Shown piece by piece: positions 13,046 to 38,579 of a stretch of 64,000 nt of DNA (within the stretch, counting starts at the first letter, position 1; each line of letters starts with the position of its first letter). The notes under the pieces are model-generated. The model did not search any database, was not told the origin of the DNA, and saw only the letters and a list, made by a program, of their open reading frames with translations. The position numbers and the translations under genes were made by a program. Source of the stretch: Apostichopus japonicus (lineage: Eukaryota > Echinodermata > Holothuroidea > Aspidochirotida > Stichopodidae); contig NC_092572.1 of NCBI RefSeq assembly GCF_037975245.1, forward strand, positions 586,001 through 650,000. Reading direction: 5' to 3'.

Positions 13046-14210
13046 CATAATGGAGAACAAGATTTTGTGAAGTTTAACCAAACAGAAAAGTATTAAAGTG
13101 TTCATATCTTTCAGTCTATTCTTTATTTTCGTTTAAAACTATCTACTTCAGAATCTAGTCTATAAAAAAAGACAGAAATAAAAAAAGTTAGCAGTATACA
13201 ATTAGTCATGATATGTATGGCGTAAAATAGTTATGTGATTGACTTATGGATGATATTCATGGAACTCTTCTCATATTAGTTAAGGTTCAGTGCTTCATTC
13301 ATTTAATGGCATGTAAGAGAACCTGTTAAACTCACTACGGTAATAATGTCGTCCAAAATGAAAACTTACTTACTTATCCTAAGCCAAACTAAACGCTGCG
13401 TTTGTTTTGTTAGTGTCAATACCATTAAAAATGATATACAATGCTTTTGGGAGACTTAAATCACTTTGTCGGCATTGTTTTGGCTAGCCTATGCTATAAA
13501 ACAGCTCAAAATGGTTTAGTAAAGAAGTAATATATACAGAAAGTTATTGAAAAATAATAAATATGCGTCAACTTTCCAATTAACAACCTGATATAATGAA
13601 TGATATCTAGCGCTACTGTCATGTTTTGAGTTTGCGAAACTATTTACATTGGTCTCGGTGATCTTAGAATAATTTATATTTGAGTTATTTATGAATGTGA
13701 GATAATCAATAATGTCAAAAATATTCCACATACCTTAGCTGAAATCCAAATCAAAAGACCATCTTCCTTACTATAAATATGGTGGCTTGATATATTCCAA
13801 GAAGCAGGAAGTAAAATTCATTTAAACGTGAGCACTTAAAAATGATTAAGATAATTTAGAAGTTTTTAAAACTCAGAAGTTTCTTTAATAACTTTTTGAA
13901 ATATTACTCAATACCAACACACCCTGTCCAACTTGGATGGTTGCCACTAAAATCATTCAAATCTGATTTCTTAAAATATCTCAATTTACTCCATGTCTTT
14001 TTCACAAAGCGAGAAGGTTACCTTGAGGAAAGGTTACGATAATCACCATTTTACACCCTTAAAACTACCGTTTGTAAACAAAAATAAAGAAAGCGCTAGA
14101 ATTGAAGAAAAAATGCAACCGCCTAAAGTTTTATGTAATACGCTTAATATTATGATTATTAAAATCATTCCCTCTGACATCCAAGAAGATCCTAGCTACA
14201 CCCAGTTGTT
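13046..14210. other. 3' flank of the pseudokinase gene, nothing recognised
   Basis: AT-rich; contains the 3' untranslated region of the gene that ends at 14211. No unambiguous poly(A) signal could be chosen among the many A-rich stretches. Confidence 0.35.
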
Positions 14211-14336
14211 CTAGTTCCCAGCATGATAGATGTGTTCTGCGTAGGTTGCTTGATCGGTATTCGCGGCTCCCATGGGAACATACGTTGTTGGAATCGGTAT
14301 CTCATACGAACTGTCGCCGATTAGTTTCTCAAATTT
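14211..14336 (-). CDS. Pseudokinase gene exon 14: tyrosine-rich C-terminal tail and stop
   Basis: Acceptor TTAACAG, phase 0, 41 codons then TAG. It has four tyrosines in SH2-type contexts: YEIP (Y538), YVPM (Y546), YAEH (Y559), YHAG (Y564). YxxM is the known docking motif for the p85 subunit of PI3-kinase. If phosphorylated, it would have to be by another kinase. Confidence 0.8.
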   Translation of the reverse strand, partial: KFEKLIGDSSYEIPIPTTYVPMGAANTDQATYAEHIYHAGN

Positions 14337-17300
14337 CTGTTAAGGGATAATGCGTGTATTTTTGTTACAGAATGAATTTCCGTGTTTCCGTCACTCAGTG
14401 AATTGCTTTAACGTCTGCCCAAACTAATCATCACGTTTCACTCCATAATTAATATAAAAACAAGAGAAAGAACAAGGAGAATGATGCTATTCGAGTACAG
14501 CCTAGTGACCAGTTAAAACATGTTTTCTATATATGTTGAACAATAAAGAAACACACACCATGAATCTATTAAAGGGCTGTCCATATTATGAGCCTATCAT
14601 CTCGCATCTCTGCAACATCTTTATAGATTGTATCGTTGTAATGGAAATCAACAAACGGCGGTTGTGGTGACGTCACACATGTTTACATAAGCTTAACTAT
14701 CTTGTAACAAGGCGGTTTATTTACAAACAATAACTATCTGTATGGAAACAAGGCGGTTTATTTACAAACAATAACTGGTTGTGTGGAAACAAGGCGGTTT
14801 ATTTACCAACAATAACTAGCTTTGTGGAAACAAGACGGCTCATTTACTAACAATGACTAGCTGTGTGGAAACAAGGCGGTTTTTGTACCAACAGTAACTA
14901 GCTTTGTGGAAACAAGGCGGTTTATATACTAACAATGACTAGCTGTGTGGGAAAATGGTGGTTTATTTACTAACAATGACTAGCTGTGTGGGAAAATGAC
15001 AATTTATTATTAACAATGACTAGCTGTGTGGGAACAAGGCAGTTTATTTACAAAACAATAACTAGCTGTGTTGGAACAAGGCGGTTTATTTACAAACAAT
15101 AACTAGCTGTGTGGAAACAAGGTGTTTTTTTTTTTCAAGAGCAGAGTCCATTGGTCACAAGTACTCAACATTTTTAATGGTACAACATTACATTATTCAA
15201 AGACGTAAAGGGAGAAGAAGATTGGTTGAATGCTACCACCAACAAATATTGTCAAATCATGCTTCCAAATAGACGCTCATTATAGACGTTACGACACGTT
15301 GGAAAGACCAGTAAAGAGAAAAACAGTACTTACAGCTACGAACGTTTCCCTCAAATGATGAATGGAAGGTCGAAGAGAACAGTTATGGTTCCAGCAATCG
15401 AACAAGATCTCATCTCTACAAATATTCCAAAACAAAATGCGATTAGTGCTGAGCAGATTTTTTTCTTAAATAACGTCAGCCAAGATACAGCCTGGCCATC
15501 AAAAACCGAGCATTGTTTGTTAAGCCACAATCATAAAATGTTGTGTTGAGAAGCGCAGTATTTAACATGAATAGGGGACCATAAATACTTTTACTTTTAT
15601 AACCATTGTCTGCCAAGAATTTCCACGAGACTGTATGGGGATGTTCTTGACACAAAGCAACACTTTACCATCAATGCATTTGATTCCCTGTGAGGTACCG
15701 TGTATAACGGGTATCAGAGATGTAAATTGTTAGTTTGAGCTTCATTTATTTATCATTCTCAAATGTGCAAGGTATTGACGATTTGGTATAATTAAGGACA
15801 CACAAATGACAGTACTTATTTTGCTATACAGCTCTTTGTTTTGGAGACACTTTAAAAAAAATACAAGAAAGTTACGAAATTCAATCATAAAAAGAAACCA
15901 GTGAATGAAATCAGTTTTCTGAGTTTGGTTGACACCATGAAACATCGACCAAGAATTGTTCAAAATAAGACTGCAAACTATGTCTGGGTGTTTACTAAAT
16001 AAATTCTATAGAGTCTAAGAAAATAGCAAGGTCTCTGCATTTAATCCTTCCTTGAACTACTTCAATATTTATATTAATGCCATTGAAACAGACATTGAAA
16101 AAATTCATTGTTTCTTGAACCATACTGGATTATATTGTTACCCGATTTCAGTATGATTATCAAATAGCACCAAACGGTGTACGGACATTGTGGATAAGAC
16201 AAAAAGTAAATTAATACGATACTAACTTTATCTGCATGTACCTCTCTGGCCAAGGTACTGATGGCGCTGCAACGTTGTCAATCGATTCCACTTCCATGTC
16301 GACCGGAAACGGTGGTGTTCCTAACAGCAGTTATGAACATTGATAACATTCATCTTAAAATATAATGCAAATTCAAGTCATGTAGATTGATGATATCAGA
16401 AGACTCATTATACATAAGTTACCAAGTACGCAACACAACAATTTTATAAATGTATACCTCCCTGAAAGAAAGGTATCATAGTTTTATTGCAATTTTCAGA
16501 TATTTAAAGACCACACAAGTTAACGCAACAATAAAAGTAATATGCACATACTATGAATCATCTTAGATCTACATTAGTTTCGCTAAGACAATGTAATGGT
16601 TCGATATACCAATCAATAGACTCCTCCCGGACACGTACAGTGGAAGTAGGTTACTGATTGTCCATTAGTATACCAGCACACATAATCACTATCGGGACAC
16701 ATACAGTGGAAGTAGGCTACTGAGTGTACATTAGTATATATACCAGCACACACAATCACTATCGGAACACATACAGTGGAAGTAGGTTACTGATTGTCCA
16801 TTAGTATACCAGCACACATAATCACTATCGGGACACATACAGTGGAAGTAGGCTACTGAGTGTACATTAGTATATATACCAGCACACACAATCACTATCA
16901 GGACACATACAGTGGAAGTAGGCTACTGAGTGTACATTAGTATATATACCAGCACACACAATCACTATCAGGACACATACAGTGGAAGTAGGCTACTGAG
17001 TGTGCATTAGTATATATACCAGCACACACAATTACTATCGGAACACATACAGTGGAAGTAGGCTACTGAGTGTACATTAGTATATATACCAGCACACACA
17101 ATCACTATCAGGACACATACAGTGGAAGTAGGCTACTGAGTGTACATTAGTATATATACCAGCACACACAATCACTATCAGGACACATACAGTGGAAGTA
17201 GGCTACTGAGTGTGCATTAGTATATATACCAGCACACACAATCACTATCGGAACACATACAGTGGAAGTAGGCTACTGAGTGTACATTAGTATATATACC

Positions 17301-20300
17301 AGCACACACAATCACTATCGGAACACATACAGTGGAAGTAGGCTACTGAGTGTACATTAGTATATATACCAGCACACACAATCACTATCAGGACACATAC
17401 AGTGGAAGTAGGCTACTGAGTGTACATTAGTATATATACCAGCACACACAATCACTATCAGGACACATACAGTGGAAGTAGGCTACTGAGTGTGCATTAG
17501 TATATATACCAGCACACACAATCACTATCGGAACACATACAGTGGAAGTAGGCTACTGAGTGTACATTAGTATATATACCAGCACACACAATCACTATCG
17601 GGACACATACAGTGGAAGTAGGCTACTGAGTGTACATTAGTATATATACCAGCACACACAATCACTATCGGAACACATACAGTGGAAGTAGGCTACTGAG
17701 TGTACATTAGTATATATACCAGCACACACAATCACTATTAGGACACATACAGTGGAAGTAGGCTACTGAGTGTACATTAGTATATATACCAGCACACACA
17801 ATCACTATCAGGACACATACAGTGGAAGTAGGCTACTGAGTGTACATTAGTATATATACCAGCACACACAATCACTATCAGGACACATACAGTGGAAGTA
17901 GGCTACTGAGTGTGCATTAGTATATATACCAGCACACACAATCACTATCGACGTTAAACACTTATCTATGAGTATTTAGGCAATCATATATGACTGCCAA
18001 TAAACCAATGAGCACAGAAATACGTATCGATGGTATGATATTTGATGGATAGTTTACCAGCTGACATAATCTCCCATATTACTACTGCTGTAGACCACAC
18101 GTCACTGGATTCTGTATATTCATTCAATAGTAACAGTTCTGGTGGAAACTGGTTCAAACTCACCAAGCGTATCTATTGTCAAAGAGAAATATGTTTCACG
18201 AATATATAACTTGAGTTAAGCATGAATAAGATTTTTTTATGAACTACGATTCATGAAATGATAGAGTTATTAAATTTCAAATAAGATACTTTCTTACACT
18301 CTTAATTTATTGATTTTCCTGACGTGATGATAAAACTATTTGTTTCCCAAGAGAAATATTCAACAATAGCCAGACATAAATCACTTTCTCAGAGATTAAG
18401 GAAGCTTGGAAAAATAATAATGTTTACTTACTGATCTTAAAATTAAGAAAAAAGTAAATTCAATGAGCAAATGAAGTAATAACTATTCGTCAGATGGGTG
18501 ATGTGGGAGATATATTGACGGTGATGAGATATGTGGAGAATATGGGAGGGAAAACGTATGAGAACAGAGTAAATCATTGGTTTGTCCACCTGTTCCTTTT
18601 TAAGAATGGCTAGCTTCCGTGCATCGCTAGAGAGACAGAAATCGTACAATTTGACATGTCCTTCTTTTGTCAGTAAAACCTTCTTAGAAGACAATCCAGG
18701 ATGAAGAAACTGTGGATTTATTACAACAAAAAAACGGTTAATTTATTATTTGGAAAAGAATTGCAATAAACAAATAATTTCACGATGAAACCATCAATCT
18801 AGATGAATACGGTTAAAAGTAAGTTGTGGTTATAATTGTAAAATTTATCTTCTCCAAAACACATTTGAAAAGAGCTAAGTAATAATGTTGGCTGTAACGA
18901 GACTTGTACCAGAGATATAAGGATTACAAGTTATTCGCTAAAGCAGAGCTATCCTGCCATTTGCTGTTTCCAAAACCCAATATAATCAATTGCCTCCAAG
19001 ATTCTAAACCAGTCATTTAAACTTCATTCATAGAGATTCTCTGTTTTACAACAATGATCTCCGTAAAGGTCAAGAAAGGATTAGAAAACAAAAGTACGTT
19101 AAGCTTATATACATATGAAACAGAAAATTGGCCGGAACATCCGAATTGCAAACAAAATGTGTGTGGTCACTTACCCCGAAGGTTTTAAGAATGTCCATTC
19201 CTTCTAAGATACCTGAGATATGTTTGATGACGTCAGTAACTGACATTGAACTGCAGCAATAATAATCCCCCTTTTCTTTAGTGTCACGTGACAACACGCT
19301 ATGCAGATTTTCGCCAGCGAAATGTGTAGTTATCAGCCAAAGTCTATCTAAAAAAATGATGGATTATATCAAAATTACATAAGGATATATATAGAACAGC
19401 AATGTCCTGTCAAGATAAGCGTAATTTGATATCAATGACTGAAAATTAATCATTCCTTTGTTATAAATGTAAAATAAATGTAAGAAAAATTAAAGTAAGT
19501 AACAAAATTGTATCACATGACTTTTAACATTACATCCAGTTTGAGAACTTGAGTTCAGTCAGTTTTATTTACATCCAGTTGTCCTTATTCCTTGTAATCG
19601 TATACTGTGCTGTAGTCCGATATGATGCTGTGGGAAGCTTGCATTTCAATACATGTCATGATATGATAGATTTGTCTCTTATGTAATTCTTGCAATTCTT
19701 TCGTGCTTTTTTTTCTTCATCACTTGATAGCGTGTGTACGAAATATCAGAGATATCGAAAGGATTGAAAGAGTCAACAACTCACTGTTTTGGATAGATAT
19801 AGCCTCGATCTTTGCTAGATGGTTCGATGCTGGTAATTCGAGACATTTTCTGATGTAAGCCTCCCAATGAATTTCTTTCTTTCTAATGAGCTTTTCTGAA
19901 AATATAACGCAACAAGTCATCAATTCAATACGGCGTGCCTTCATACTGCTCAAAATGTTGACTGAAGCACCATTTAATAATACAATCGGGAAACTAGATC
20001 CAAAAGGAATAAATCCTTCTTTACTGCACACAACAAATTGAAGTATTCTCTTAGATCAGATTCCGGCCATAATTTGAAGATATTCACTTAATATATCACT
20101 AACCTGTTAGGGTTGTTATTACAACACACTTATTGGTCTCATTAGCAAGATTTATAGATCCCATCCATCTTTTGTAGATTTTTCCTATCTTTATTTTCTT
20201 GATGATGGAAATTTCATTCTCACTCAACAAACGGGGGTCTTTCCCTGCAATCACATCTGCTGTAGAATAATAATCTGTGGAAAAGTTGAGAAACGTACAT

Positions 20301-23300
20301 TACGGCCAATGAGCATATATCGTAGTCATTTTCTATTGTAAGTCATCGTTGAATGTTGGCTGTTGATGACCGACAATTCCCATTGGCTAATTAGTGATTG
20401 AACAGTCGACATAGTTTAATTACATGTCAACTATGTTAATCTTCTTCTATGTATTGTCTTTTCTTCCATCTTCTTTTCAAACATCATAACCCACAGATAA
20501 AACTTTATTAAATACGACTAGTCTGTATACGATAAACAGCTGCTATCTTTCAATAATTAATTTACTTTCAAACTATTACCATTTGGAGTAAACTTACTCG
20601 GTTCACTTCCCCCAGAATTGTGCGAGTTTTGTGAGTTTTCTTCGTCATCAGGTATCTTTGGTAATGCTTTCCTGTTACAGAAATAAATGGCGTTGCATCA
20701 TGTTGGCAAAGTTCATCAACATAATAGCCATGTAGTAAATTATTAAAAGGAAATACTTTAATTTCAAATATCTGTCGTTTGAAAAAAAAAAATTCTGGAA
20801 GTAATTTAAGGGTAATGAAATAAATTGAATAATGGGATATATTTCTGAAAGACATAAAACATTTTATATTAACCCCCACTATGCATTCCATTATAAACAC
20901 GAACCAACCAATCCCTAACTCCACAATCTGTTCTGGTTTAATTGTGTAGTAAATAATCTCACAAACATGACTATGTACTTTTTGCGTCCGATTAATTTTT
21001 CATCTCGACCACAGCAATAACAAAGAATGGGACACGCTTGTGTTTGTTTTAAGTTTTTAGTGGCTCGATCTCTGCGAAAAGGGCAACATTTTGAAAAACC
21101 AGTGAAGCATCGTAATTGTCCGATTACATATTGCACACTAGTTAAACAACGTGATTGTGGGATTACATACTACACAAAAATAAACATCGTGATTGTGGTA
21201 ATAAATATATATAAAAAAATCATTAAACATCATGATTGTGGGATAAATACTACACAATAGTTTAACAACGTGATTGTGGGATTATATACTACACACTACT
21301 TAAACATCATGATTTTTGGGTTACATGGCAACAGAGTAGTGAACATGACAACAAATCGAGAATTCCTTACGTTCCTTCTGTCAGAATACTTTTTCGATTA
21401 ACTGTACAATAAAGAGAATTTTTTTCAAGAAAATTTTATATAAACCTTATTGGTTTCCATAAAATGTAGGGATATTGCATTTTCAGAAAACCAATTTAAA
21501 TTGTAACAGAAAATGTAATAAATATATAATATTATTATGTTATACATTTTATAATCAAACTAACGTGAACTTAGATCACTGAAGGAGTAATGTTTTGTGT
21601 TTTGAGTGTTGTATTTGTAATAATAGTATTGTATTTAAATGTTCATTGTGAAATGAAATATGAAACAAAGCATTTCAAAGCAAGGTTAATGAGAACATGT
21701 GTCATATAAAAGGGATCTTAGAGCAAAACTTGAAATTGTACATTAGATCCAGAAATTTATTTTAAATAAAACCTTACTTGATTGATCGGTATCTGAGGCT
21801 CCTTTATCAAGAACATTCATTTGATGACTTGACATTGATGAGGTGACATTTGGAATTCCAATCCGAAAGGAAAAGAGAATGAAGAGGAAGCGAGAGTGAT
21901 AATTTCTGCCTTGCTCTATATATCACTGTAAGTCATATTGCTTGCTAGGGCTACTGGTATAAGTTAAGTAGTAACGGGATGGGATGAGGTGGCTGGAGGG
22001 CCACTGGTAGAAGTTAAGAAGAGGCGGGATGGGATGAGGTGGCGGGAGGGCTACTGGATAAAGGTGAGTAGTGACGGGATGGGATGAGGTGGCTGGAGGG
22101 CTGCTGGTAGAAGTTGAGAAGAGGCGGGATGGATTGAGGTGGCTGGAGGGCTACTGGTAGAAGTTAAGTAGTGACGGGATGGGATGAGGTGGCGGGAGGT
22201 CTACTGGTAGAAGTTGAGAAGAGGCGGGATGGGATGAGGTAGCGGGAGGTCTTCTGGTAGAAGTTGAGAAGAGGCAGGATGGGATAAGGTGACTGGAGGG
22301 CTACTGGTAGAAGTTAAGTAGTGAAGGGATGGGACGAGGTAGCTGAAGGGCTACTAATAAAAGTTAAGAAGAGGCGGGATGGAATGATGTGGCTGGAGGG
22401 CTACTGGTAGAAGTAGTGTTTATGCCAAAGTTTGACATTTTAATAAACTCACCCTCGCCGGTTTTGTGTTACTGTAAAACATAGAAAGAAATAATGCATT
22501 TGTGAGTATATATCTTGAAAATGGATCAATCAAATATACATGATAAAGTAATATACATGATAAAGTAAAATCCATAAATACACTAATGTTGGTAAGTACT
22601 ATTAAACTATTGAGATAATAAAAGCAGTAGTAAATTGTGCATCAGGAGATATATCATCTTTCCTTTAAAAGTTTGATCTAGTTTGTAGTAAAATGTTTGA
22701 AGTTTAAATAATACGTGCACCCAGACCTTCGTCCTACCTCTTCCTATCTCCGAAGGTTTATTGTTTACCCATTCTCATTTGATCCACTGTTTAACATTTG
22801 AAATGTCTCCCTGGTCATATCACAACATTTTATTATATGCTTACATTACGTTGTAGTACAGAGAACAGTCTAAAAAGGAATTTTAATGCCTACAGATCAG
22901 ACATGAATTTTAACTTTTCTAATAGGCATGTGGACAATTTGTGTGGCTATACCTCGATAATGTGTTCTATACGTAGTTCTATGATGTTTTTTGCTAACGT
23001 ATTTGATAAACGAAACAGCGTTATAGTCTATATCATATAAATTGCTGTCATTGTTTCATAAATTTGAAAGTTCAATATTGTGTACAATACTAATACCTAC
23101 ATCTGAATTTTCTGACTGTGAAACAAGCACAAACTAACAGACAACTGGAAATGGACCCGACAACACCAGCCACAATCATCCATTTGTTGTTCCCTAAGGA
23201 TGTAAAACGAGTAAAGATATGTTTTTGTGGAAACTCCTGAGGACGATATTGGGTCTATGACTACATAATTTGAATGGTATTGGTTTTGATCTACCTATAC

Positions 23301-24167
23301 CCAGCAGCTTCTTTTTTACATTATTGCTTCTATATACTAGCATTTGATCAATATATGTATAAATACACTTATTCAGTAAGGAAGCATTAGGCTATGTCTA
23401 CTGATGTTATTATCGTGTGTTCATGTATACTAATTACAACGAGGCTAACATTCAAGTACGATCTATCATGAAAGGTATTCCCCTCGTTGGCGAAAAGAAA
23501 CCGCAACCTATTGAATGACATATTAACCGCAAGCCTTGTATGCAACACAGAAACTATTAAGTACCAAAACTATAAGTTACATATAACTGAACAAAAGAAT
23601 TAACAATAATAGAATTGAACACAACTGAACAAAAATTATATAGAGCGGAAGAAAAATATTGCAGATGGAATATTGGATGTTGATATGAATATAAACATAT
23701 ACTGACTTGTGTTCTTAATGAATTATGTTCCTCAAGAAGTTATATTTTAGTTTAACGTTCAAATCACTGACGACACAATGTTATATTGGATGTAGTTTAA
23801 ACATGAACACAAATTTGAAGACAGTTAGCTTTTTGAATAGTAAAACAGGGAATTGCAGTCAGCGAGATGTTATTTTGGTCATTTCAATGCAAAACAAAAT
23901 ATTCTTAGATAATGCGTACCTTGCAATGCATATTGCGTATTCATTACAGTACATCAATTATAAATTCATCAAATTAGCCTCCTTTATAAAAATAAATTGG
24001 TCAGATCGTGAAACAAACTATTGAATACTTCTAATTAAGAACATTATCTTGTTCAACTTGGTGATATCACGACCTTTGTTATATATATGCATGTCGAAAA
24101 ATAGTGATTAAAATATGTTGAAAGTTGATTAATTGGGCTTCACCAGCCGTGTAGAATCGACCGCATG

Positions 24168-24214
<47 letters not shown>

Positions 24215-25824
24215 CCTATTGACCACACAAGAAACATAGGGATCGCGTGACGATAATTGTAGCGCAGCAGGTAAACTGGCATTTCTTTGAGGTACATTTG
24301 ATGCTTGTTCTATCTTCATGGTTCCATGTTTTGTTTTATTTGACGAATACACCCAATCACAGAATGTCGAAGTACCTTTAGACGATATGAACTTGTCTAT
24401 TGTGTAGTAAACCTCTTAAAAATATAAGATAAACATGAACTGAAAGTTTTTTAGGAAATCTTAATTGAACATTTTGTTAATTGAAAGATTTGAGAGATTT
24501 AAATGGAAGCAATGGTTACAGTGAGATTTTGACGAAGAGACTCGGTTCATGATTATGTCGAATACCGGAAAGTACGCCATGTTGAAATTACTGTCGAAGT
24601 TAGCAAACTAGATGGGTCGGTTACAGCTTACTATGTCGAACGGTACACGGATTTATTCCATCGCACTATTCGTCGTGAGCAATTAAATGTCGAAGTTCAC
24701 ATATTGTAGAGGTCGGAGTTAACAAACTATGTCTAACACCACGCAACGTTGGTCTCGGAATGACTTTCTTTTAAGCAATGCTTTGAAGTACTAATTGATT
24801 CCTCAATAGAAAACTTTATCAAAGTTAATTTGACGAAGTTGCAAGAACGGCGTGTTATTTTAGATTTTAATATTTCATTCTGAAAGGGAGACAGAAAAGT
24901 GTCTAAGTGATCGTAAACTACACGCGGTACCCTGATTGACCTTGTATTGACCTGAACGGCTGAAATACATCTATGTCTCGTTAGAAGAGGGAATTTTGTA
25001 ACAATCTCTAACTGGTCGAACCTCCGTTCTGCATATTGAGCTTATAATACACCAGTGCTGTTTTCTTTCTTTTTCCTTTCATAATCACGTATGTTAGTTA
25101 ATAGGGGGCGCTATATAGTTCCATTAGCTTCATAAGGCAACGTAATCTAAGTAGCTATTAACAAAACTGTAAACATAACAGCGTTCATGGATCTTATCAA
25201 AACTGAACCTGCGTAAAGAAAGGATAATTTTAAATATGTTTTTTGCTAGAAGACTAGGAAAGAAGTTATATTCTAACATTTTTATAGATTTAAGTTCGCA
25301 ATTTAGTAGTTACGTACAACGTTACATATGTTACACCAGTTATCATGTACATGATACTGGCATTGTAATCTAGGCTAATTTAGGGTTACAGAGCTAACAT
25401 GATCAAGATATATTGTCGATACTTATTGCAAAGCTATGATCTTGAAAGAAGGTCTGGTGTTGGGTAAGACGGCCTTGGGAAGATGTGTAAATGTATAGTC
25501 TATGTTTCATTACTTTAGTACTGAAAACACGTTCAGAAGAACACGAAGAAGGTAACGGGCGAACACTAGTAGATCGCTTATAAATTGTAAATAACTATAA
25601 ATATGCAAATAAGCTTTACTAGCATGGTATGGTCGCAATATAAACTATGTACGTTATAGAAGTATAACGGGTCAGGAAAATGCCGTGTTTAATGCAGTTG
25701 AACGGTAGAGACAGGTAAAGTTAATATTGTTCCCTAACTTGTGACTATCGTTTAGATGGGACCTGCATTAGCTATCTAATGAACGAGGACGGAAAACATA
25801 TAAAAACACAATAAATAGTACAAG

Positions 25825-25856
<32 letters not shown>

Positions 25857-27781
25857 AAATATCTAGAAACTGCGTACCTATAACCGGGGATAACAAATGA
25901 GTTTCATTTGATATTCGATACAAACGCAGAAATAGGTTGAGTGGGTTTACGCTTTGGGTTTGGGTCAAACTTACGTTTTCGCAGGGAGAAAAGTAACGCA
26001 AACGTGAGACCACAGCCTACAGCTATAGAAATTGTTACTCCAACGGTGATGATATACATTGTTAATGTGAAATTGGGATGATTATCTGTATAGGAAATAG
26101 AAAAATAAAATGGATTATTTTAAAAACATCAGTGAATGAGGTACTATATCATATGATACTTTATGTATAATTCAGAAGCGAATTCGTCATAGACATTAGG
26201 GCACTTGGTGCTCTCAACATGTAGTCAAATAATCCGAAATTTATATTAGATATATATAATTTTGATTTATGCTTTCGTCACATCCATTGTTAGTGAGAAA
26301 AAAAAATGAACGAAATGAACAACTCTGTTTACCCGTTGTTACAGGCACTGCATCTGTCACTAAGGGAAAAGAGAGAGACGATCGTTTTCTAAAATTACTT
26401 GGTTTTCAGTTTTAATTTTAATTTATTGAATAGTCAGACTGATGATATGTGCTAGCTTTAAGTTCTTTATTAGAAATCGGAAATAACAATGAATTAATAT
26501 CTAGCAAATAATTAGAACCACGTTGTACTTTCCCTACATTAAATAATAAATATCATATTTTGTATATGATTTATTTATGCTACACTTAATATGGACTCGT
26601 TGACATTCCTTGTATCAATATCAGTGAAATATTATTCTTCTCATTAGAATATTATAAGAAGTCATTTACATAAGCAAAAACGGGTTATTGATACTAATGG
26701 CAACACCTGTTGAAGACTTTCGAAGACTTACACCAATGCGTTGTTACACAGTTATCCATATTTCAACTCTTTTACACTATCTCTAAAGATGATTACTGAT
26801 TATGGAAACAAAATGTTTTATTGCAACAAGTATACAAGAAAATAAATCTCTTGAAGTATTTCTCACAATTATGTTTTCTACCATCTTCACTAAAACCTGA
26901 GTGTCCTTTCCAATACACGATGAACACATACTTATCAAAATACATTGTGGATCGTTATTACAGGGAATATTAATTACATTTTTATTGAAAAACAATTTAC
27001 CATGTGGAAATCCCTGATTATTATCTTTGTCTGCAGAGAAGGTCAAAAATATCAATGACAAATGAGTGTCGCTTCCAGTATACGATGAACACATAATTCA
27101 TAATATACAATGTATTATTATCAAATGGAATCGCATTAGTTTTGTTATTGAAAATGAATTTCTCTCTGATTATTATCATTGTCTGCAGAGAATGAACACA
27201 TTTTGCTTTGTTTTTCTATAAGAGGGGTAATTTTCTAATTCAGCTTGTAATTAAATATGATAAGTTCATAGTCACTTACAGAAGCAATGTAATCTACTCA
27301 CCGTCTATTTCACATATGAGTGTAAATTTGGCCAACACTTTCTCTCCCTGTTGACATCGAATAGAGGATTCATTCTCATCGTCACAGGGTTTCACAGTTA
27401 ACGAAGCATTCGTCTCATGGCAGCTATTTACGCTTTCTCCAACACGTTCCCCCAAGTAAATCGCTCCGTGAGCAATGTTAGTCTCAGAATTGAACCATTC
27501 CACATTATTTTCTGTATAAACCGGGCAAACAAGGCAGACATGATCACACGACCTGGCATTACATACGGAGGTCGGAAAAGACTGACTGTAAACTAGTTCG
27601 TCACAAATGCAAGTAGCTTGTTCTTGGTCGTCTGCAAACGAAACGTATAGCGCAATTTCATTTTAGATAATGTTATACTATCATTTATTTTCTATCAGAT
27701 TTTAATGCACCGAATTTACTTACCGCAGAAAACAAACGACAGGCTGAGAAGAGCAAATAGTATTGACCTTAATCGTGTCAT
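14211..27781 (-). CDS. Ig-domain receptor pseudokinase, single-pass membrane protein (14 exons)
   Basis: Hand-built gene model. Exons in order: 27781-27724, 27631-27302, 26085-25975, 22471-22453, 21905-21778, 20666-20598, 20274-20104, 19895-19785, 19347-19175, 18709-18590, 18172-18058, 16320-16227, 15415-15334, 14336-14211. They total 1,707 nt (568 codons plus stop) and phases agree throughout. Order: signal peptide (1-19), Cys-rich Ig-like domain (20-129), membrane helix (about 139-162), Ser/Asn/acidic juxtamembrane, kinase fold (about 255-527), tail with four tyrosines. The fold is of tyrosine-kinase type (SSDVWS, FPPELL, DCWNHNCSLRPS). However, beta-3 Lys is T292, HRD is H393-P394-G395, the catalytic Asn is K400, DFG is D413-F414-C415 and the glycine loop is degenerate. 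The family rule is that such domains do not transfer phosphate. I infer a scaffold or co-receptor at the plasma membrane. The weakest joins are exon 5's acceptor and the exon 5/6 junction. Confidence 0.85.
14690..15130. repeat. Minisatellite in the last intron, about 41-42-bp unit
   Basis: Tandem GTGTGGAAACAAGGCGGTTT then ATTTAC.AACAATAACTAGCT, about 10 copies, between exons 13 and 14 of the pseudokinase gene. Confidence 0.85.
15334..15415 (-). CDS. Pseudokinase gene exon 13: end of kinase fold
   Basis: 82 nt, phase 2 to 0, ending at GTAAGT. DEILFDCWNHNCSLRPSIHHL matches the tyrosine-kinase subdomain XI pattern (L...CW..DP..RPSF..L), with the structural CW and RP retained. Confidence 0.85.
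16227..16320 (-). CDS. Pseudokinase gene exon 12: G-helix region
   Basis: 94 nt, phase 1 to 2, lying beyond the 70-bp minisatellite that fills the intervening intron. TPPFPVDMEVESIDN matches the G.PPYP....E.... segment after the F-helix, then VPWPERYMQIK. Confidence 0.75.
16620..17950. repeat. Minisatellite with 70-bp unit and higher-order pattern in an intron
   Basis: About 19 copies of a 70-bp unit (GGACACATACAGTGGAAGTA ... CCAGCACACACAATCACTAT), very homogeneous, ending about 110 bases from exon 11. Units with GTGTGCATTAG instead of GTGTACATTAG recur near 17001, 17211, 17491 and 17911. These spacings are 3, 4 and 6 units, so multi-unit blocks have been copied. Confidence 0.95.
18058..18172 (-). 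CDS. Pseudokinase gene exon 11: APE region and F-helix
   Basis: 115 nt, phase 0 to 1. NQFPPELLLLNEYTESSD resembles the P-VKWMAPESL...TSKSD segment. DVWSTAVVIWEIMSAG is a clear tyrosine-kinase subdomain IX (DVWSFGVLLWEI.S.G), with its structural Asp kept. Confidence 0.88.
18590..18709 (-). CDS. Pseudokinase gene exon 10: degenerate catalytic loop and DFG
   Basis: 120 nt, phase 0 to 0. FLHPGLSSKKVLL aligns with the F-V-HRDLAARN-VLL loop: Arg to Pro, Asp to Gly and Asn to Lys. VKLYDFCLSS aligns with VKISDFGLS, with DFG changed to DFC. The donor is GTGGAC, weaker than others in the gene; it is chosen because it joins in frame to exon 11. Confidence 0.8.
19175..19347 (-). CDS. Pseudokinase gene exon 9: hinge and E-helix
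   Basis: 173 nt, phase 1 to 0. LWLITTHFAGENLHSVLSR matches the beta-5/hinge/D-helix pattern of tyrosine kinases (LYLVTEF..GDLLSFL). SVTDVIKHISGILEGMDIL matches the E-helix before the catalytic loop. A Cys/Tyr-rich insert (GDYYCCSS) lies between them. Ends GGG before GTAAGT. Confidence 0.8.
19785..19895 (-). CDS. Pseudokinase gene exon 8: C-helix and beta 4
   Basis: 111 nt, phase 1 to 1, between TATTTTCAG and GTGAGT. KKEIHWEAYIRKCLELP resembles a kinase C-helix with its Glu kept, followed by NHLAKIEAISIQN in the place of the usual HPNIVKLLGV strand. Confidence 0.75.
20104..20274 (-). CDS. Pseudokinase gene exon 7: kinase N-lobe, beta 1-3
   Basis: 171 nt, phase 1 to 1. It encodes the start of the kinase fold. 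KIKIGKIYKRWMG stands where GxGxxG should be and has only one glycine of the loop. VVITTL stands where VAVKTL is expected, so Thr replaces the ATP-binding Lys. Confidence 0.8.
20598..20666 (-). CDS. Pseudokinase gene exon 6: acidic juxtamembrane segment
   Basis: Encodes LPKIPDDEENSQNSHNSG with a GTAAGT donor in phase 1. The better-looking acceptor is CAG, which would start the exon at 20671 and demand an incoming phase 2. Exon 5 leaves phase 1, which fits the AAAG five bases further on, hence the start given here. The paralogue at 164-205 has the same arrangement. Confidence 0.6.
21115..21310. repeat. Short tandem repeat in intron, about 40-bp unit
   Basis: About five imperfect copies of CGTGATTGTGGGATTACATA then CTACACA...TAAACAT in the intron between exons 5 and 6. 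Confidence 0.7.
21778..21905 (-). CDS. Pseudokinase gene exon 5: juxtamembrane region
   Basis: Ends at GTAAGG. In the frame set by the micro-exon it reads NYHSRFLF... then a Ser/Asn/Asp-rich stretch (MSSHQMNVLDKGASDTDQS). The latter resembles the paralogous exon at 2390-2469. The acceptor (AAGGCAG) lacks a good pyrimidine tract, so the 5' border is the least sure part. Confidence 0.55.
21950..22420. repeat. G-rich minisatellite in intron, about 50-bp unit
   Basis: About nine copies of GGCGGGATGGGATGAGGTGG CTGGAGGGCTACTGGTAGAA, lying between the 19-base micro-exon (22453) and exon 5 (21905). Strand-asymmetric G on the plus strand. Confidence 0.9.
22453..22471 (-). CDS. Pseudokinase gene exon 4: 19-base micro-exon
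   Basis: A strong acceptor (TTTTACAG after a pyrimidine-rich tract) and a GTGAGT donor enclose only 19 bases encoding TQNRRG. It carries phase 1 to phase 2 and so links the transmembrane exon to the next exon in frame. A micro-exon of the same size and phase sits at 2754-2772 in the paralogue, which supports both. Confidence 0.7.
24171..24210. repeat. (AT)n microsatellite
   Basis: About 40 bases of TA dinucleotides in intron 3 of the pseudokinase gene. A shorter one lies at 25824-25857. Confidence 0.9.
24900..25800. repeat. Intronic module also found at 34.5-37.4 kb
   Basis: Contains ATTGACCTTGTATTGACCTG (near 24940), a GGGGGCGCTATATAG block (near 25105), CCTGCGTAAAGAAAGGA (near 25210) and CTATCTAATGAACGAGGACGG (near 25770). 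All recur in the same order at 36.6-37.4 kb, and partly at 34.5 and 35.7-36.1 kb. Non-coding; either a segmental duplication of this intron or a decayed mobile element. Confidence 0.75.
25975..26085 (-). CDS. Pseudokinase gene exon 3: transmembrane segment
   Basis: 111 nt, phase 1 to 1, with CAG acceptor and GTAAGT donor. It encodes a short linker, then about 24 hydrophobic residues (start MYIITVGVTI, end FALLF), then a basic stop-transfer SLRK. It joins in frame to the Ig exon. Confidence 0.85.
26890..27190. repeat. Local duplication of about 150 bp in intron 2
   Basis: CGATGAACACATA... to GATTATTATC.TTGTCTGCAG occurs twice, at about 26920-27035 and 27085-27192. No open exon is supported in either copy. 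Confidence 0.6.
27302..27631 (-). CDS. Pseudokinase gene exon 2: extracellular Ig-like domain
   Basis: The exon is 330 nt, phase 1 at both ends, as usual for exons that carry a whole Ig domain. It follows a TTTGCAG acceptor and ends at GTGAGT. It encodes a Cys-rich segment with NVEWFNSET resembling the Ig C-strand Trp region and several Asn-X-Ser/Thr sites. Ten cysteines make it an unusual, possibly extra-bridged, Ig fold. Assignment as Ig rests on exon phase, the Cys/Trp pattern and position, so a divergent fold is possible. Confidence 0.7.
27724..27781 (-). CDS. Pseudokinase gene exon 1: signal peptide
   Basis: The ATG opens a basic N-terminus followed by a hydrophobic run (ILFALLSLSFVF) and a Cys. 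The exon ends at a consensus GTAAGT donor in phase 1. This is a typical secretory signal exon and it fixes the gene start. A TATAAA lies 43-48 bp upstream. Confidence 0.8.
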
Positions 27782-27823
27782 GACGTTCACTGTATTGCAA
27801 GCACTATGTACACGACGGAAACG

Positions 27824-27864
27824 TTTATAGGATACAATGCTCATGTAACGATGTAAAAGTGAAA
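27824..27864 (-). promoter_or_regulatory. Candidate promoter of the pseudokinase gene
   Basis: TATAAA on the minus strand at 27829-27824, 43-48 bp before the ATG, would place initiation about 14 bases upstream of the start codon. The plus strand at 27857-27864 reads AAGTGAAA, which fits the AANNGAAA core bound by IRF-type factors. Both motifs are short and common. Confidence 0.3.
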
Positions 27865-27909
27865 TCAGCTTATTAATAGGGTAATATTATAACCGTAAAA
27901 CACAACGGA

Positions 27910-28560
27910 AACGTAATCTTTCACTTACTATTTAAATTACTAACATCCCCAGCGTTTGATGTACTGATTTATTTCAGTCCATGATTTCCTTGTCATTGTT
28001 CGACTGAAGTATTTCTTTTATTTCTTTTGGCAAAATCACTTACAGGAAGATAACATGGAATAAACTTAATTGAATGGTATTGGTATCGTTTTACGCTCAT
28101 ACTGAAATATGACGGATAATCTCACCTGACTCAGGGGTGAGAACAATCCAAGGGTTTTCATTGTAAACATTGCGTGTAGTGTTGTTACCGAATGTAACCT
28201 TTGTTTAAAATATTGAAGAAGACAAATTTGGATATTTTGTCAACCTTCATGAAAAAATATCTCATTTCTTTCCTACGTAAAGAAGTAGCGCCCAAGCACG
28301 GACGGAACACGAGACAACATACTTTCAATTTCTGTTTCCGATTGTGTTGGGCGAGTACTGTACCCGATACAAGATGACGTATGATAACTAATGCAACATA
28401 CTTTCACTATACATCATATGTAAACAAATGGTGGACTAGGCGTTGCTATATCGACAGACAGTTAACGTATTAATTAAGTGGACTCGGTGTGTTATTGGTA
28501 AGTAAAACATGACAACAGTAAGATGACGACATGTCAGGACTTATTTTGAGACAACGTTTA
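27910..28560. other. Upstream flank of the pseudokinase gene, nothing recognised
   Basis: No exon, repeat or clear regulatory cluster seen. Confidence 0.35.
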
Positions 28561-29025
<465 letters not shown>

Positions 29026-29081
29026 TGATTGAAAATCGTAATGAGTTGGAAAATGAGAGAACAGTGAAAAAACTTCCAGCC

Positions 29082-34180: not shown

Positions 34181-37100
34181 AAAGAGGAACGTGTTTTTAA
34201 CTGTCAATTGACTCTTGTTATGGAATTGCGCCCTCTATTATTGTCCTGGTAAGCGTCACCGTTAATGTTACACGAAGCATATTATAATAAAGTCACACGA
34301 TGTTAGTATTTAGCAGGCTGTCTGATCATCCTTGCACAGAGAAAGAAAGAATGTTTTAACTCCCAGTCGACTATTTTATTGGACTTGCGCCCTCTATTTT
34401 CACTCTGTTTTTTCTGTTACCAGTAACGTTACACTAAGTATAGTGAGTGTAATTAACACACATGATGTTAGCATTCAGCAGGTTAATTGACCTTGTATTG
34501 ACCTGAACGGCTGAAATACATCTATGTCTCGTTAGAAGAGGGAACGTTGTAACAATCTCATATGGAAAGGTGGCGATCATTTGATCCGTGCATAGTCGAC
34601 CTCGGGCCTTAAGTGTGTGTTTTATACCTTCCAAAACGACCGTATCGCGATCTTTTGAACAAAATCAATGTACCGATATCATTTACTGATATCGGCTAAA
34701 ACAAATTACAGTAGTTTAAACATTTCTCTTTCATAATCTTTTAACGAATCATCATTAATCTGAACTTTACTGTATGTCGTTTTCCGATTAAAAAAGTTTA
34801 AATTTTTAGTCCAGTCGGATTTATGTGCTTGCATATTCGTTTATTTTACAAGGACGCTAACTTCAAACTACTCGAATTCTCAGACCGTTTTATCAAACTG
34901 CATGGCTAAACTTGCGCAACTAACTTCAAATTCTGTTCTTTCATATTATATAAGCCTATTTCTGATTGGTTAATGTTCACTGTATGTCTTTTTTCCATCG
35001 AATGAAAGTTTCCGTTAGAAATTTTTCTTCGAAAACCTCATTATAACGCCTCATTATTTATTCATGAGCTACGTCACGAATCAGCTTGTGTATCAACAAC
35101 ATTCTCACTGATGCTTCGTCCGACAACCGTATTGTGATTTCTGAGGTGAATTTCGAAATTTGTTAAGTAATATGCAATGAAATAAGATGACGACATTGCA
35201 ATAAACATAAATTAACAAGCTGAGAATCCTATTTCATAGTTTCCTTTGAAATAGGATGAATATAGTGATATAAATTGCCCACGTAAACGTTTGTAGCGAA
35301 CGTACAGGCCTACCGTGCTTTATGTATTAATGCATATGGTTTCGTACAGTTAGGTTAACACTCGTATGTACGTAGGCTAAAGCTATCGCTAGGACTATCA
35401 CTGGTTGTTTGTTTGGATGATACCACTGTAAGTGGGTAACTCTTTATTTTGCTTTTACAACCAATTGATTTGTAACAAATGTTATTTTCTCAAGTTCGAT
35501 TAAAAGGTGTGCAGACAAATAAATGTATAAACACAACGTCATGTCTCAGTGTTCGTTTACATTCACTGCTATAATTATTTTAGCATCAATTCATTTAGAA
35601 ACAAATACAATCCCCTTGCCGGTAATGGAACAGTCCGCCTGTCAATATGCATATTCATACCGGTGACTCATAACATCGGCGGATTTTAGTCTGTGTGGCT
35701 TTGTAGAGCAAATGCTCTTTTATAGCCTAAACTTTTCCATATGCTAACTGGTCGAACCTCTGTTCTGCATATTGAGCTTATAATACACCAATGCTGTTTT
35801 CTTTCTTTCTCCTTTCACAAACGTATTTTCGTTAAGAGGGGTGCTATATAGTTTCATTAGCTTCATAAGGCAACGTAATCTAAGTAGCTATAAACATATC
35901 TGTAAACATAACAGCGTTCGTGGATCTTATCAAAACTGAACCTGCGTAAAGAAAGAGACCTTTGAATCTGTGTTTTGCTAGAAGACTAGGGAAGAAGCTA
36001 TATTGTAAACATATTTAAAGATTTTAGTTCACAATTTAGTAGTTACGTCCACCTTTATATATGTGTTTTCTCATTTTGGATGGCGTAGTTTCACTTTATT
36101 GTCAATACAGCTAACTTTACAACTCTACTGGGATCTTAGAATACGTTGTGGATTTCAAGGATTGCATACCACACACACACAAATACAATTAATTAAGGAA
36201 ACGATGTCATCATAAATAAACCTCCGTTTCAAGCAAGGAGTAAATTAACTCACATTCATGAAAGTGTTGATATGTAGCCTACATTCTGCATTCAGAAACA
36301 CAGAATTCATCTCCCAATAATTCACTAATAGTATTGCTTTCTTGTTATGTTAAGATCGGAGCAATTTCTATTTATGTTTCTGTTTGGTGTTACCATTAAT
36401 GTTACACTAAGCATAGTATAGTTGACTCTAATGATGTTAGCATTGAGCGGGCTGTCTGATAATGCTAGCATAGAGAAATAATGCTTTAGTTCTCAGTTGA
36501 CTATTTAAATGGACTTGCACCCTCCACAATCATTTTTTTTTATGTTACCGGTAACGTTACACTAAGCATAGTGTAAATAACTCACATGATATTAGCATTC
36601 AGCAGGCTGATTGACCTTGTATTGACCTGAACGGCTGAAATACATCAATGCCTCGTTAGAAGAGGGAATTTTGTAACAATCTCTAACTGGTCGAACCTCT
36701 GTTCTGTATATTGAGCTTATAATACACCAGTGCTGTTTTCTTTCTTTTTCCTTTCATAATCACGTATGTTAGTTAAGAGGGGGCGCTATATAGTTTCATT
36801 AGCATCAGAGGCAACGTAATCTAAGTAGCTATAAACATATCTGTAAACATAACAGCGTTCACTCGATCTTATCAAAACTGAACCTGCGTAAAGAAATAAG
36901 AAATTTGAATCTGTGTTTTGCTAGAAGACTAGAAAAGTAATTATTTTCTAACATTTTTATACATTTTAGTTCACAATTTAGTAGTTACGTCCACCTTTAC
37001 ATATGTGTTTTCTCTTTTTGGATGGCGCAGTTTCACTTTATTGTCAATACAGCTAACTTAACAAGAAACGACGTCATCATAAATAAACTTTCGTTTTAGG

Positions 37101-38579
37101 CAAGGAGTAAATTAACTCACATTCATGAAAGTTTGATATGTAGCCTACATTAACTATAATAACTGAAATAACTATAAATATATTAGCATGGTATGGTCGC
37201 AATATGAACTATGTATGTAATAGAAGTAACGGGTCAGGAAAATGCCGTGTATAATGCAGTGTAACGGTAGAGACAGGTACAGTTAATATCGTTCCCTAAC
37301 TTGTGACTATCGTTTAGATGGGACCTGCATTAGCTATCTAATGAACGAGGACGGAAAGCATCTTATAACACAATAAATAATACATGTCCGTATTTGACAT
37401 GTAACTAGAATGAAAAGAAGAAGAATATTAACTAACATGATACAGAGAAACATGGTTACTGCTTACTCTGTTCAACTAACCATGTATCGAGATGTGATAT
37501 ACAAATATATACTATCAACTAGCGCCATCTCATATACAAAGTAACAATAGGAATACAAGATAACTTGACATGATGTAAAGAAGGGTTGTCTGGCGAGTGT
37601 AAGGAATTTTAAAACCTGGTCACTACACATTAGTCTTTGTACACAATATTCACTACCATTAAAAATCGGAGCCGAAGGACAGATCACAGTACAGATACAG
37701 AAGTTGGTCTTACTCTAATCTTATCAGAACCGTATATGCAAAAAGACTTCTCGACCTCTTTCTTAAGATCATGTTTGGTATTATGTTCGCCTTCTTCGAT
37801 GATCACACAGTCACAGTCTCGATGCAATGGGACTAGGGTTGTGAGCGGATCAGTCGTTCGGTTTTTTTTACGTGCCAAAGTCCTTACCTGGCGACTTTTC
37901 TTAAAAAGTATATGTAAATATACGGTTGTGATTCCGATCATTTGCAACGTTACCGCCTTCCGTTTCCTTGAATAATCCTGGTTCCTGTTTGAAAATTCAG
38001 TACAACAGAAACAGTCACTAAGAGCAGGCATTATATAAAACGTAACAGCGTCGCCTTTTGTTGATGACAAACATTGCTGTTCTTTCACTGCTACAAGTTA
38101 ATGGAACTTTCAATATAGCTTAAGTTAGCTATGGGATTTATTAGGTGGAGATGTGCTATGTATAGCATAGGGAAGTTTTTCTCTGCAAGTTATGTATGTT
38201 TTTCAATCAACTAATAACGTTTGCCAAAACGTATGTTTCACAATCAATTTTCATTGTAATTTAAGGCACTCAACATATAGCGAGTGCACATTATGAGCTG
38301 GGGCGACTTAAATATTCGTATTTTTAGATTTAAAAATGGTTAGAGAAAGGACATGAATGTGGACAGTCTCTTATTTCATGCACTCTCACGTTGTTTGACG
38401 TCAATAACTAGCTTTCATATTCCCAAGAATAGCGATTGAAAAATTTCCCTTTCAATTTTATGTGGTATACATAACATACAAATATCGTGGTTTACTCTTT
38501 TGGTGCATTTGTAAGTGTACAGTTGTTGATGGTACATAGCATTTAGAACGAAAGAGGGAAGTGTTTTAACTGTTGATTG
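34180..38579. repeat. Decayed, multiply copied non-coding modules
   Basis: The roughly 160-bp module 'TTGACT....T.GACTTGCGCCCTCTAT...GTTACACTAAGCATA...GTTAGCATTCAGCAGG' appears near 34200, 34370, 36480 and, outside this span, at 42810 and 42960. The TGACCTTGTATTGACCTGAA...GGGGGCGCTATATAG...CCTGCGTAAAGAA module appears near 34490, 35745-36060 and 36610-37000, matching 24.9-25.3 kb. 37180-37390 matches 25620-25810. No receptor exon was recognised with these copies. Confidence 0.7.
37743..37907 (+). mobile_element. Diverged second copy of the U2-headed retroposon
   Basis: Begins GACTTCTCGACCTCTTT then TTAAGATC, about three-quarters identical to the U2-derived head at 8294-8250. It contains GCGGATCAGTCGTTCGG and ends GGCGACTTTTCTTAAAAA, as the other copy does. 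Flanking direct repeats GTATATGCAAA (37732-37742) and GTATATGTAAA (37908-37918) differ at one base and look like a target-site duplication. The long minus-strand open frame across it (38088-37684) is probably fortuitous. Confidence 0.65.

Follow-up and report, generated by a model that had tools for sequence, protein, structure and literature searches.

A 64,000-nt window of the sea cucumber Apostichopus japonicus genome was analysed here (positions 586001-650000 of contig NC_092572.1, referred to below as C12), and it carries on its minus strand a gene (window positions 27781-14211) with a kinase fold whose catalytic motifs have been replaced, as they have been throughout a large family of paralogues. 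It seems fairly probable to us that the product is a receptor pseudokinase which is phosphorylated in trans by an active kinase, and that the family to which it belongs is of an immune type. The evidence consists mainly of motif losses common to the family loci, of purifying selection on the kinase exons, and of ectodomains which diverge much faster than the kinase. A prediction made earlier from the letters of the window described an enzyme-dead immunoglobulin (Ig) receptor kinase with a tyrosine-rich tail; this overall interpretation is in part supported, as selection could be demonstrated at the level of the family, while the independence of the motif losses could not be upheld.

The kinase fold is recognizable but its catalytic motifs are replaced

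The kinase fold proposed for this gene is real, as PF07714 (Pfam) matches it at E 2e-29 (103.1 bits against a cut-off of 23.1) along almost the whole profile (positions 9-257 of 258). The top matches in the Protein Data Bank (PDB), both by sequence and by profile search, are the EGFR, ALK, VEGFR, PDGFR and FGFR kinases; these are the nearest solved kinase domains by sequence, but they are remote and active. Assignment to one named family of receptor tyrosine kinases was attempted and set aside, since no single family stands out in the comparisons with PDB entries and with kinases of the same genome (of the latter, L001-L008 align at 22-29% over longer pieces).

All four replacements listed in the original prediction are present in the letters: Thr stands for the beta-3 Lys of the VAIK motif (VVITTL), HPG for HRD and Lys for the catalytic Asn (HPGLSSKK), and DFC for DFG. 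The possibility that an intact HRD or DFG is hidden elsewhere in the gene, proposed at that time as a check, was ruled out by a scan of positions 14000-28100, where H[RK]Dx4N is absent from every minus-strand frame and the single DFG string (at 19344) lies in another frame, beside stops. Loss of the VAIK Lys, the HRD Asp, the catalytic Asn or the DFG motif is what defines a receptor pseudokinase, and such loss was found in the window gene and in nearly all paralogues read. We thus infer from these residues that the kinase domain is without activity.

Motif losses are common to the family

The whole assembly (671,581,487 bases, 35 contigs) was searched with the predicted protein and with exons 13-14 (exon numbers as in the list below). 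Because only part of the candidates was scored (76 of 850 for the protein query and 150 of 451 for the exon 13-14 query), the family counts are lower bounds. The protein query gave at least 98 exon matches, 92 of these on C12, and 35 kinase loci, window included, were readable in part, with a 36th recognised by position. Once matches lying within 4 kb of each other are merged, the best 150 of the 451 exon 13-14 candidates correspond to at least 86 loci, spread over 13 contigs, a count which takes in broken copies. The observation made in the window is more than chance, since the same exons and motifs recur at the 34 further loci read in part.

The beta-3 Thr is found in 30 out of 30 full-length exon 10 sequences, with five of the 35 loci omitted (three have an extra codon and also read TTL, and two are without the exon in the stretch read). 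HPG is present at 33 of the 34 close loci, window included, the exception being a frameshifted copy. Every exon 13 sequence (34/34) has Lys for the catalytic Asn, and 31 of the 34 have DFC, with one each of DFY, YFC and GFC; the one locus omitted from this count has a deletion and also begins FLHPG. We also hand-picked, from the exon 13-14 matches, 12 further relatives that are 48-81% identical to the query and lie on nine contigs (C1, C3, C4, C10, C11, C12, C16, C17 and C18). All 12 have DFC and Lys for Asn, and 11 have HPG, with HPC in the twelfth; an active sister of lower identity could be missed by this search, because the exon 13-14 query itself holds HPG and DFC.

The original prediction spoke of four independent losses. 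As the losses are common to the family loci, they most simply predate the expansion, and independent decay of the four motifs was rejected. Catalytic death would thus most simply be ancestral, with one loss and a subsequent expansion.

It might be argued that the kinase keeps an unusual catalytic activity despite these losses. Of the 34 exon 13 sequences, 32 retain the DFG Asp (31 with DFC and one with DFY), and an accessible ATP site is described for some human receptor pseudokinases in the portions of a review drawn on here (PMC13259870). However, no close locus read in frame has kept the beta-3 Lys, the HRD Asp or the catalytic Asn, and we regard residual activity as highly improbable.

A further family member (L069) lies just left of the window, at C12:580969-583773, on the same strand and with HPG and DFC in its exon 13.

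The kinase exons are under purifying selection

Codon analyses were performed with IQ-TREE under the MG model with kappa 1, and pairwise values were obtained by NG86 from exons 10-17 as available. The kinase codon set comprised 231 codons of 19 out of the 35 loci (21 had all five exons, and two of those were dropped for stops). Its omega (dN/dS) is 0.248, with a log-likelihood (lnL) of -3274.6 in comparison to -3363.2 at omega 1 (2 x delta lnL ~177). When the window gene is compared with other loci, pairwise omega is 0.128-0.234 in 32 of the 33 listed pairs and 0.377 in the remaining one, which involves a locus with a stop.

Judged by its codons, the kinase fold is under purifying selection across the family. 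The earlier claim of a selected pseudokinase rather than decay therefore holds for the family and for the window gene in relation to the other paralogues, and the proposed check for neutral dN/dS on the kinase exons, run here among paralogues, gave a result that is not neutral. The newest branch of the window gene has too few changes to tell (the figures are given below).

Tail tyrosines are mostly retained

As described originally, the tail contains YVPM and three more tyrosines, namely those of YEIP, YAEH and YHAG. YxxM is retained in 14 of the 16 tails read, three of the 14 being tails with stops, and a p85 iSH2 domain is present in the genome. These motifs would be consistent with phosphorylation of the tail by a partner, in the manner of ErbB3, and with recruitment of p85.

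Gene structure and two transmembrane exons

The start codon at 27781, the stop at 14211, the minus strand and the frame running through are all as previously proposed. Phase consistency was confirmed too, but the exon number was not: instead of 14 exons, our hand-built and script-checked model has 15 in a reading with a single transmembrane (TM) exon, two such exons, TM1 and TM2, being available. All introns are GT-AG and all phases match. The predicted product has 535 residues in the TM2 form or 541 in the TM1 form, and consists of a signal peptide, a 110-residue Cys exon, two short stalk exons, a membrane span, a juxtamembrane stretch, the kinase fold and the tail; the signal peptide and the membrane spans were judged by eye. 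Three exons of the model are short (27030-27001, 26359-26333 and 22471-22453). The features are as follows.

27724..27781, minus strand: exon 1, with the start codon and, by eye, a signal peptide MTRLRSILFALLSLSFVFC; four paralogues have 94-98% DNA identity here
27302..27631, minus strand: exon 2, Cys-rich, possibly Ig-like ectodomain, 110 amino acids, phase 1-1
27001..27030, minus strand: exon 3, stalk exon of 30 nt, phase 1-1; six paralogous loci have a similar sequence
26333..26359, minus strand: exon 4, stalk exon, phase 1-1
25975..26085, minus strand: exon 5 (TM1), transmembrane, phase 1-1; the three other loci read share its donor
25904..25974, minus strand: TM1 read-through short cytoplasmic tail KRKFDPNPKRKPTQPISAFVSNIK, then stop; aligned at other TM1 loci
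23101..23193, minus strand: exon 6 (TM2), transmembrane, phase 1-1; other loci have it linked to kinase exons
22453..22471, minus strand: exon 7, 19-nt juxtamembrane micro-exon
21778..21827, minus strand: exon 8, alternative juxtamembrane exon, in phase as a substitute for exon 9; found at 19 paralogous loci
20598..20671, minus strand: exon 9, juxtamembrane exon
20104..20274, minus strand: exon 10, kinase N-lobe with degenerate glycine loop and beta-3 Thr
19785..19895, minus strand: exon 11, alpha-C region
19175..19347, minus strand: exon 12, hinge to alpha-E
18590..18709, minus strand: exon 13, catalytic-loop remnant HPGLSSKKVLL and DFC
18058..18172, minus strand: exon 14, P+1 region and DVWS
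16242..16320, minus strand: exon 15, C-lobe
15334..15415, minus strand: exon 16, CW..RP
14211..14336, minus strand: exon 17, tail YEIPIPTTYVPM...TYAEHIYHAGN, stop

The TM1 query gave 7 matches in the genome and the TM2 query 30, window included. TM1 and TM2 together, followed by kinase exons, occur in the window gene and in a gene at 872 kb of C12. At the remaining five TM1 loci no TM2 or kinase is found, among the matches listed, before the next ectodomain-bearing gene or, for the two at 2.08 and 2.22 Mb, before a kinase match at 2.68 Mb. At five of the six other TM1 loci the match to the TM1 tail reaches residue 54 or beyond of 60. Between the window and L012, the TM1 tails differ by one synonymous and two non-synonymous changes (two amino acids), which is too few to test. 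Through TM1 and its short basic tail, the same ectodomain would be made in a form that has no kinase, here as an isoform and at other loci from genes of its own, and this form is probably a decoy or a paired receptor.

One could instead imagine two units at this locus, a short kinase-less receptor gene (exons 1-5 and the TM1 tail) beside a headless TM2-kinase unit which recombination would have placed there, so that their fusion in our model would be an artefact. In line with this, five of the seven TM1 loci are without a detectable kinase, a conserved short tail with a stop of its own follows TM1, and the window locus is recombinant, with the switch between TM1 and TM2 (see below). On the other hand, the order ectodomain-TM1-TM2-kinase is found also at C12:872-863 kb, the ectodomain match of other kinase genes lies also beyond the same intron segment, no additional ectodomain exon was picked up by the ectodomain query in the stretch from TM1 to TM2, and the exons are all phase-compatible. 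We find two units unlikely and continue to treat the locus as a single receptor gene.

Exon 8 is 50, 65, 71 or 74 nt long at 19 paralogues besides the window, and these lengths are all 2 modulo 3; at all 19 it is open in the phase of exon 7. Because of these frame-keeping lengths it was retained as a possible replacement of exon 9. Its use in addition to exons 7 and 9 was rejected, since the frame is then broken (tried with a longer exon, 21905-21778). Exon 8 and the tail share the letters GA..TDQ, and a duplication of the tail is a conceivable origin of the exon.

Two paralogues are joined in the window gene

In its 5' half the window gene matches C12:869.3-872.6 kb at 87-96% identity, in introns as well as exons, and in its 3' half it matches C12:740.8-750.7 kb at 88-97%. 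The kinase half of the 872-kb gene, as far as it was read (L031), aligns with the window in exons only, and synonymous divergence (dS) between the window gene and the 872-kb gene is 0.045 for the ectodomain and 0.64 for the kinase. Upstream of the 744-kb kinase, at 750.7-767 kb, the ectodomain query gave no match. The switch point lies in the TM1-TM2 intron, at ~24,990-25,330, and this intron segment recurs at many places of the C12 cluster, including 35744-37387 of the window. At the level of the DNA sequence, recombination has joined two paralogues in this gene, within the intron that precedes TM2. Such exchanges are allowed, since exons 2 to 6 are all of phase 1-1.

Ectodomains diverge much faster than the kinase

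Exon 2, with its 10 Cys in 110 residues, bears out the short Cys-rich ectodomain of the original prediction. The single Ig-like domain also claimed there is weakly supported. On one hand, all 23 weak matches of a PDB profile search are antibody light chains (E 0.08-1.2; a class abundant in the PDB), and the spacing of Cys and Trp is, by eye, consistent with an Ig domain. On the other hand, no Pfam Ig family matches any of 10 ectodomain members, and a single-sequence AlphaFold2 model of the ectodomain was unusable, with a predicted local distance difference test (pLDDT) score of 42.5. Two non-Ig Pfam families match one ectodomain member each, at chance level.

The ectodomain codon set comprised 11 loci of 40 query matches, and the protein alignment 10 of those 11. 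Seven Cys, one Trp and NASL are invariant in the 10 aligned ectodomains. Eleven kinase genes had an ectodomain match assigned to them by position and strand, three of these matches being weak (E 0.002-0.009) and some covering the exon in part. In 10 of these 11 genes, identity to the window is 26-59% for the ectodomain versus 71-82% for the kinase; the eleventh has 95% and 82%. By this comparison, the ectodomains have changed far more rapidly than the kinase.

For the ectodomain, positive selection is suggested but not established. For the five closest ectodomains, lnL is -768.5 at the optimum versus -783.6 at omega 0.3, the optimum being far above the kinase value. Codons 30-69, round the Trp of the presumed C strand, are the best of eight sliding windows (8.36), and one ectodomain pair out of ten shows 26.5 non-synonymous versus 0.5 synonymous changes (p 0.003).

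Four weak ectodomain-exon matches in a row were seen on another contig (C7:15.58-15.81 Mb), with no C7 kinase among the matches listed; they may possibly represent other receptors with a similar ectodomain.

Proposed mechanism and the evidence against it

The recombinant gene, together with the fast divergence of the ectodomains, would fit a role in recognizing microbes or in telling self from non-self. In the mechanism we propose, the dead kinase fold would be kept as an interaction surface and scaffold, and the outer domain would bind a variable ligand. Ligand binding would bring the receptor beside an active tyrosine kinase, and this presumed partner would phosphorylate the conserved tail tyrosines, after which YEIP and YxxM could recruit SH2 proteins, p85 of PI3K included. 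The TM1 short-tail form could act as a decoy or a paired receptor. More tentatively, we entertain a broader scenario as a possibility short of an even chance: a repertoire of at least 86 loci would have arisen from an already dead receptor kinase and would vary and exchange its Ig-like ectodomains, employ kinase-less partners and borrow an active kinase in innate immunity or self-recognition.

Several points weigh against the proposal of an immune-type receptor. The receptor is a prediction from genes, and an immune function is deduced from their pattern only. Its ectodomain is possibly Ig-like, which is weakly supported and unproven. Ectodomain omega is ~0.7 over the 11 loci, significantly below 1, and the value of ~1.7 for the five closest ectodomains is not significantly above 1 (2 x delta lnL 2.25), so that only the best sliding window and one of the ten pairs point to positive selection. 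Constraint on the tail exon is looser, with a median pairwise omega of 0.62 (NG86). In the 872-kb gene (C12:869.8 kb) the TM1 tail match stops at residue 42, five residues into the tail; because it ends early, the dual TM arrangement may not be maintained there. There are also broken copies among the 35 loci, five with stops and four with gapped exons (in two cases in-frame single-codon gaps), and L024 has a frameshift in exon 13. Finally, the window gene differs from the 744-kb copy by three synonymous and seven non-synonymous changes, and the resulting omega of 0.63 on 10 changes is uninformative.

Some of these figures may be read in another way, namely that relaxed constraint or recombination lies behind the fast change of the ectodomain, and that the role of the family is in development or tissue signalling instead of the recognition of microbes or non-self. 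An omega below 1 over the 11 ectodomains would fit this, and so would the lack of overall significance in the closest five. Nevertheless, the Cys residues, the Trp and NASL are invariant, yet many close pairs have an omega of about 1 or higher. Recognition families usually show tandem clusters, relatives that lack a kinase and mosaic copies, and all three were seen here, the last as the window gene itself. We find relaxed constraint rather doubtful as an explanation.

It could also be that the window copy is a young pseudogene of an otherwise functional family. Birth and death are ongoing, as the loci with stops or gapped exons and the frameshifted L024 indicate, and non-synonymous changes outnumber synonymous ones in the pair formed with the 744-kb copy. 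The window exons, however, are without stop or frameshift and the splice sites of the model are all GT-AG, which makes this explanation improbable in our opinion. We retain the receptor pseudokinase, phosphorylated in trans, as our preferred reading.

Comparison with known systems

The closest precedent by mechanism comes from Caenorhabditis elegans. According to the sections of the paper used here (PMC10523662), FLOR-1 is a dead receptor kinase which works together with OLD-1, an active kinase, when oomycetes are recognized, and its activation-loop and C-terminal tyrosines are needed. The same sections (PMC10523662) place FLOR-1 and OLD-1 in KIN-16, likewise a species-specific receptor kinase family, and report that FLOR-1 has lost the glycine loop, the HRD Asp and the Asn. 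KIN-16, as described there, mixes active and dead members, whereas the sea cucumber members read in frame all carry the dead motifs. The likeness to FLOR-1 and OLD-1 is that of a working precedent, compared by description with a sea cucumber family known from genes.

HER3 is encoded by one gene, and its ectodomain is of the EGFR type. No Pfam match to the receptor L and furin-like domains of the ErbB/HER3 type was found in the complete TM2 form of our model at E up to 1. As summarised in the consulted portions of the review mentioned above (PMC13259870), HER3/ErbB3 is a dead receptor tyrosine kinase too, and its tail is trans-phosphorylated and recruits PI3K. It is one of the receptor tyrosine pseudokinases of humans, eight in number, none of which has HPG, DFC or a beta-3 Thr in the table of that review (PMC13259870).

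A likeness of arrangement, with no homology claimed, exists also with the paired Ig receptors (CEACAM, KIR and LILR). The long tails of paired Ig receptors carry immunoreceptor tyrosine-based inhibitory motifs (ITIM), not a dead kinase. Their long-tail and short-tail copies share very similar ectodomains and undergo gene conversion (for CEACAM, see PMC7042247).

No description of the sea cucumber family was found among the papers listed in the literature searches, which were judged mostly by title and the start of the abstract. For a receptor pseudokinase family, its size is unusual, as are its divergent, exchanged ectodomains and the presence of the dead motifs in all members that were read in frame. 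If our reading is true, a large recognition repertoire can use a dead kinase as its standard module for signalling, and the family would offer a natural library for what the pseudokinase fold does without catalysis. It would also be a candidate receptor system of the sea cucumber, directly testable in coelomocytes.

Repeats in and near the gene

A tandem array of ~70-bp units occupies window positions 16680-17950, within the intron between exons 14 and 15. The 744-kb copy has no match for 16764-17810, and the array looks much shorter there. Two further intronic tandem arrays of the gene lie at 14720-15120 and 21990-22420, and long TA-rich simple repeats, seen as repetitive open frames, are found upstream of the gene at 28600-29030.

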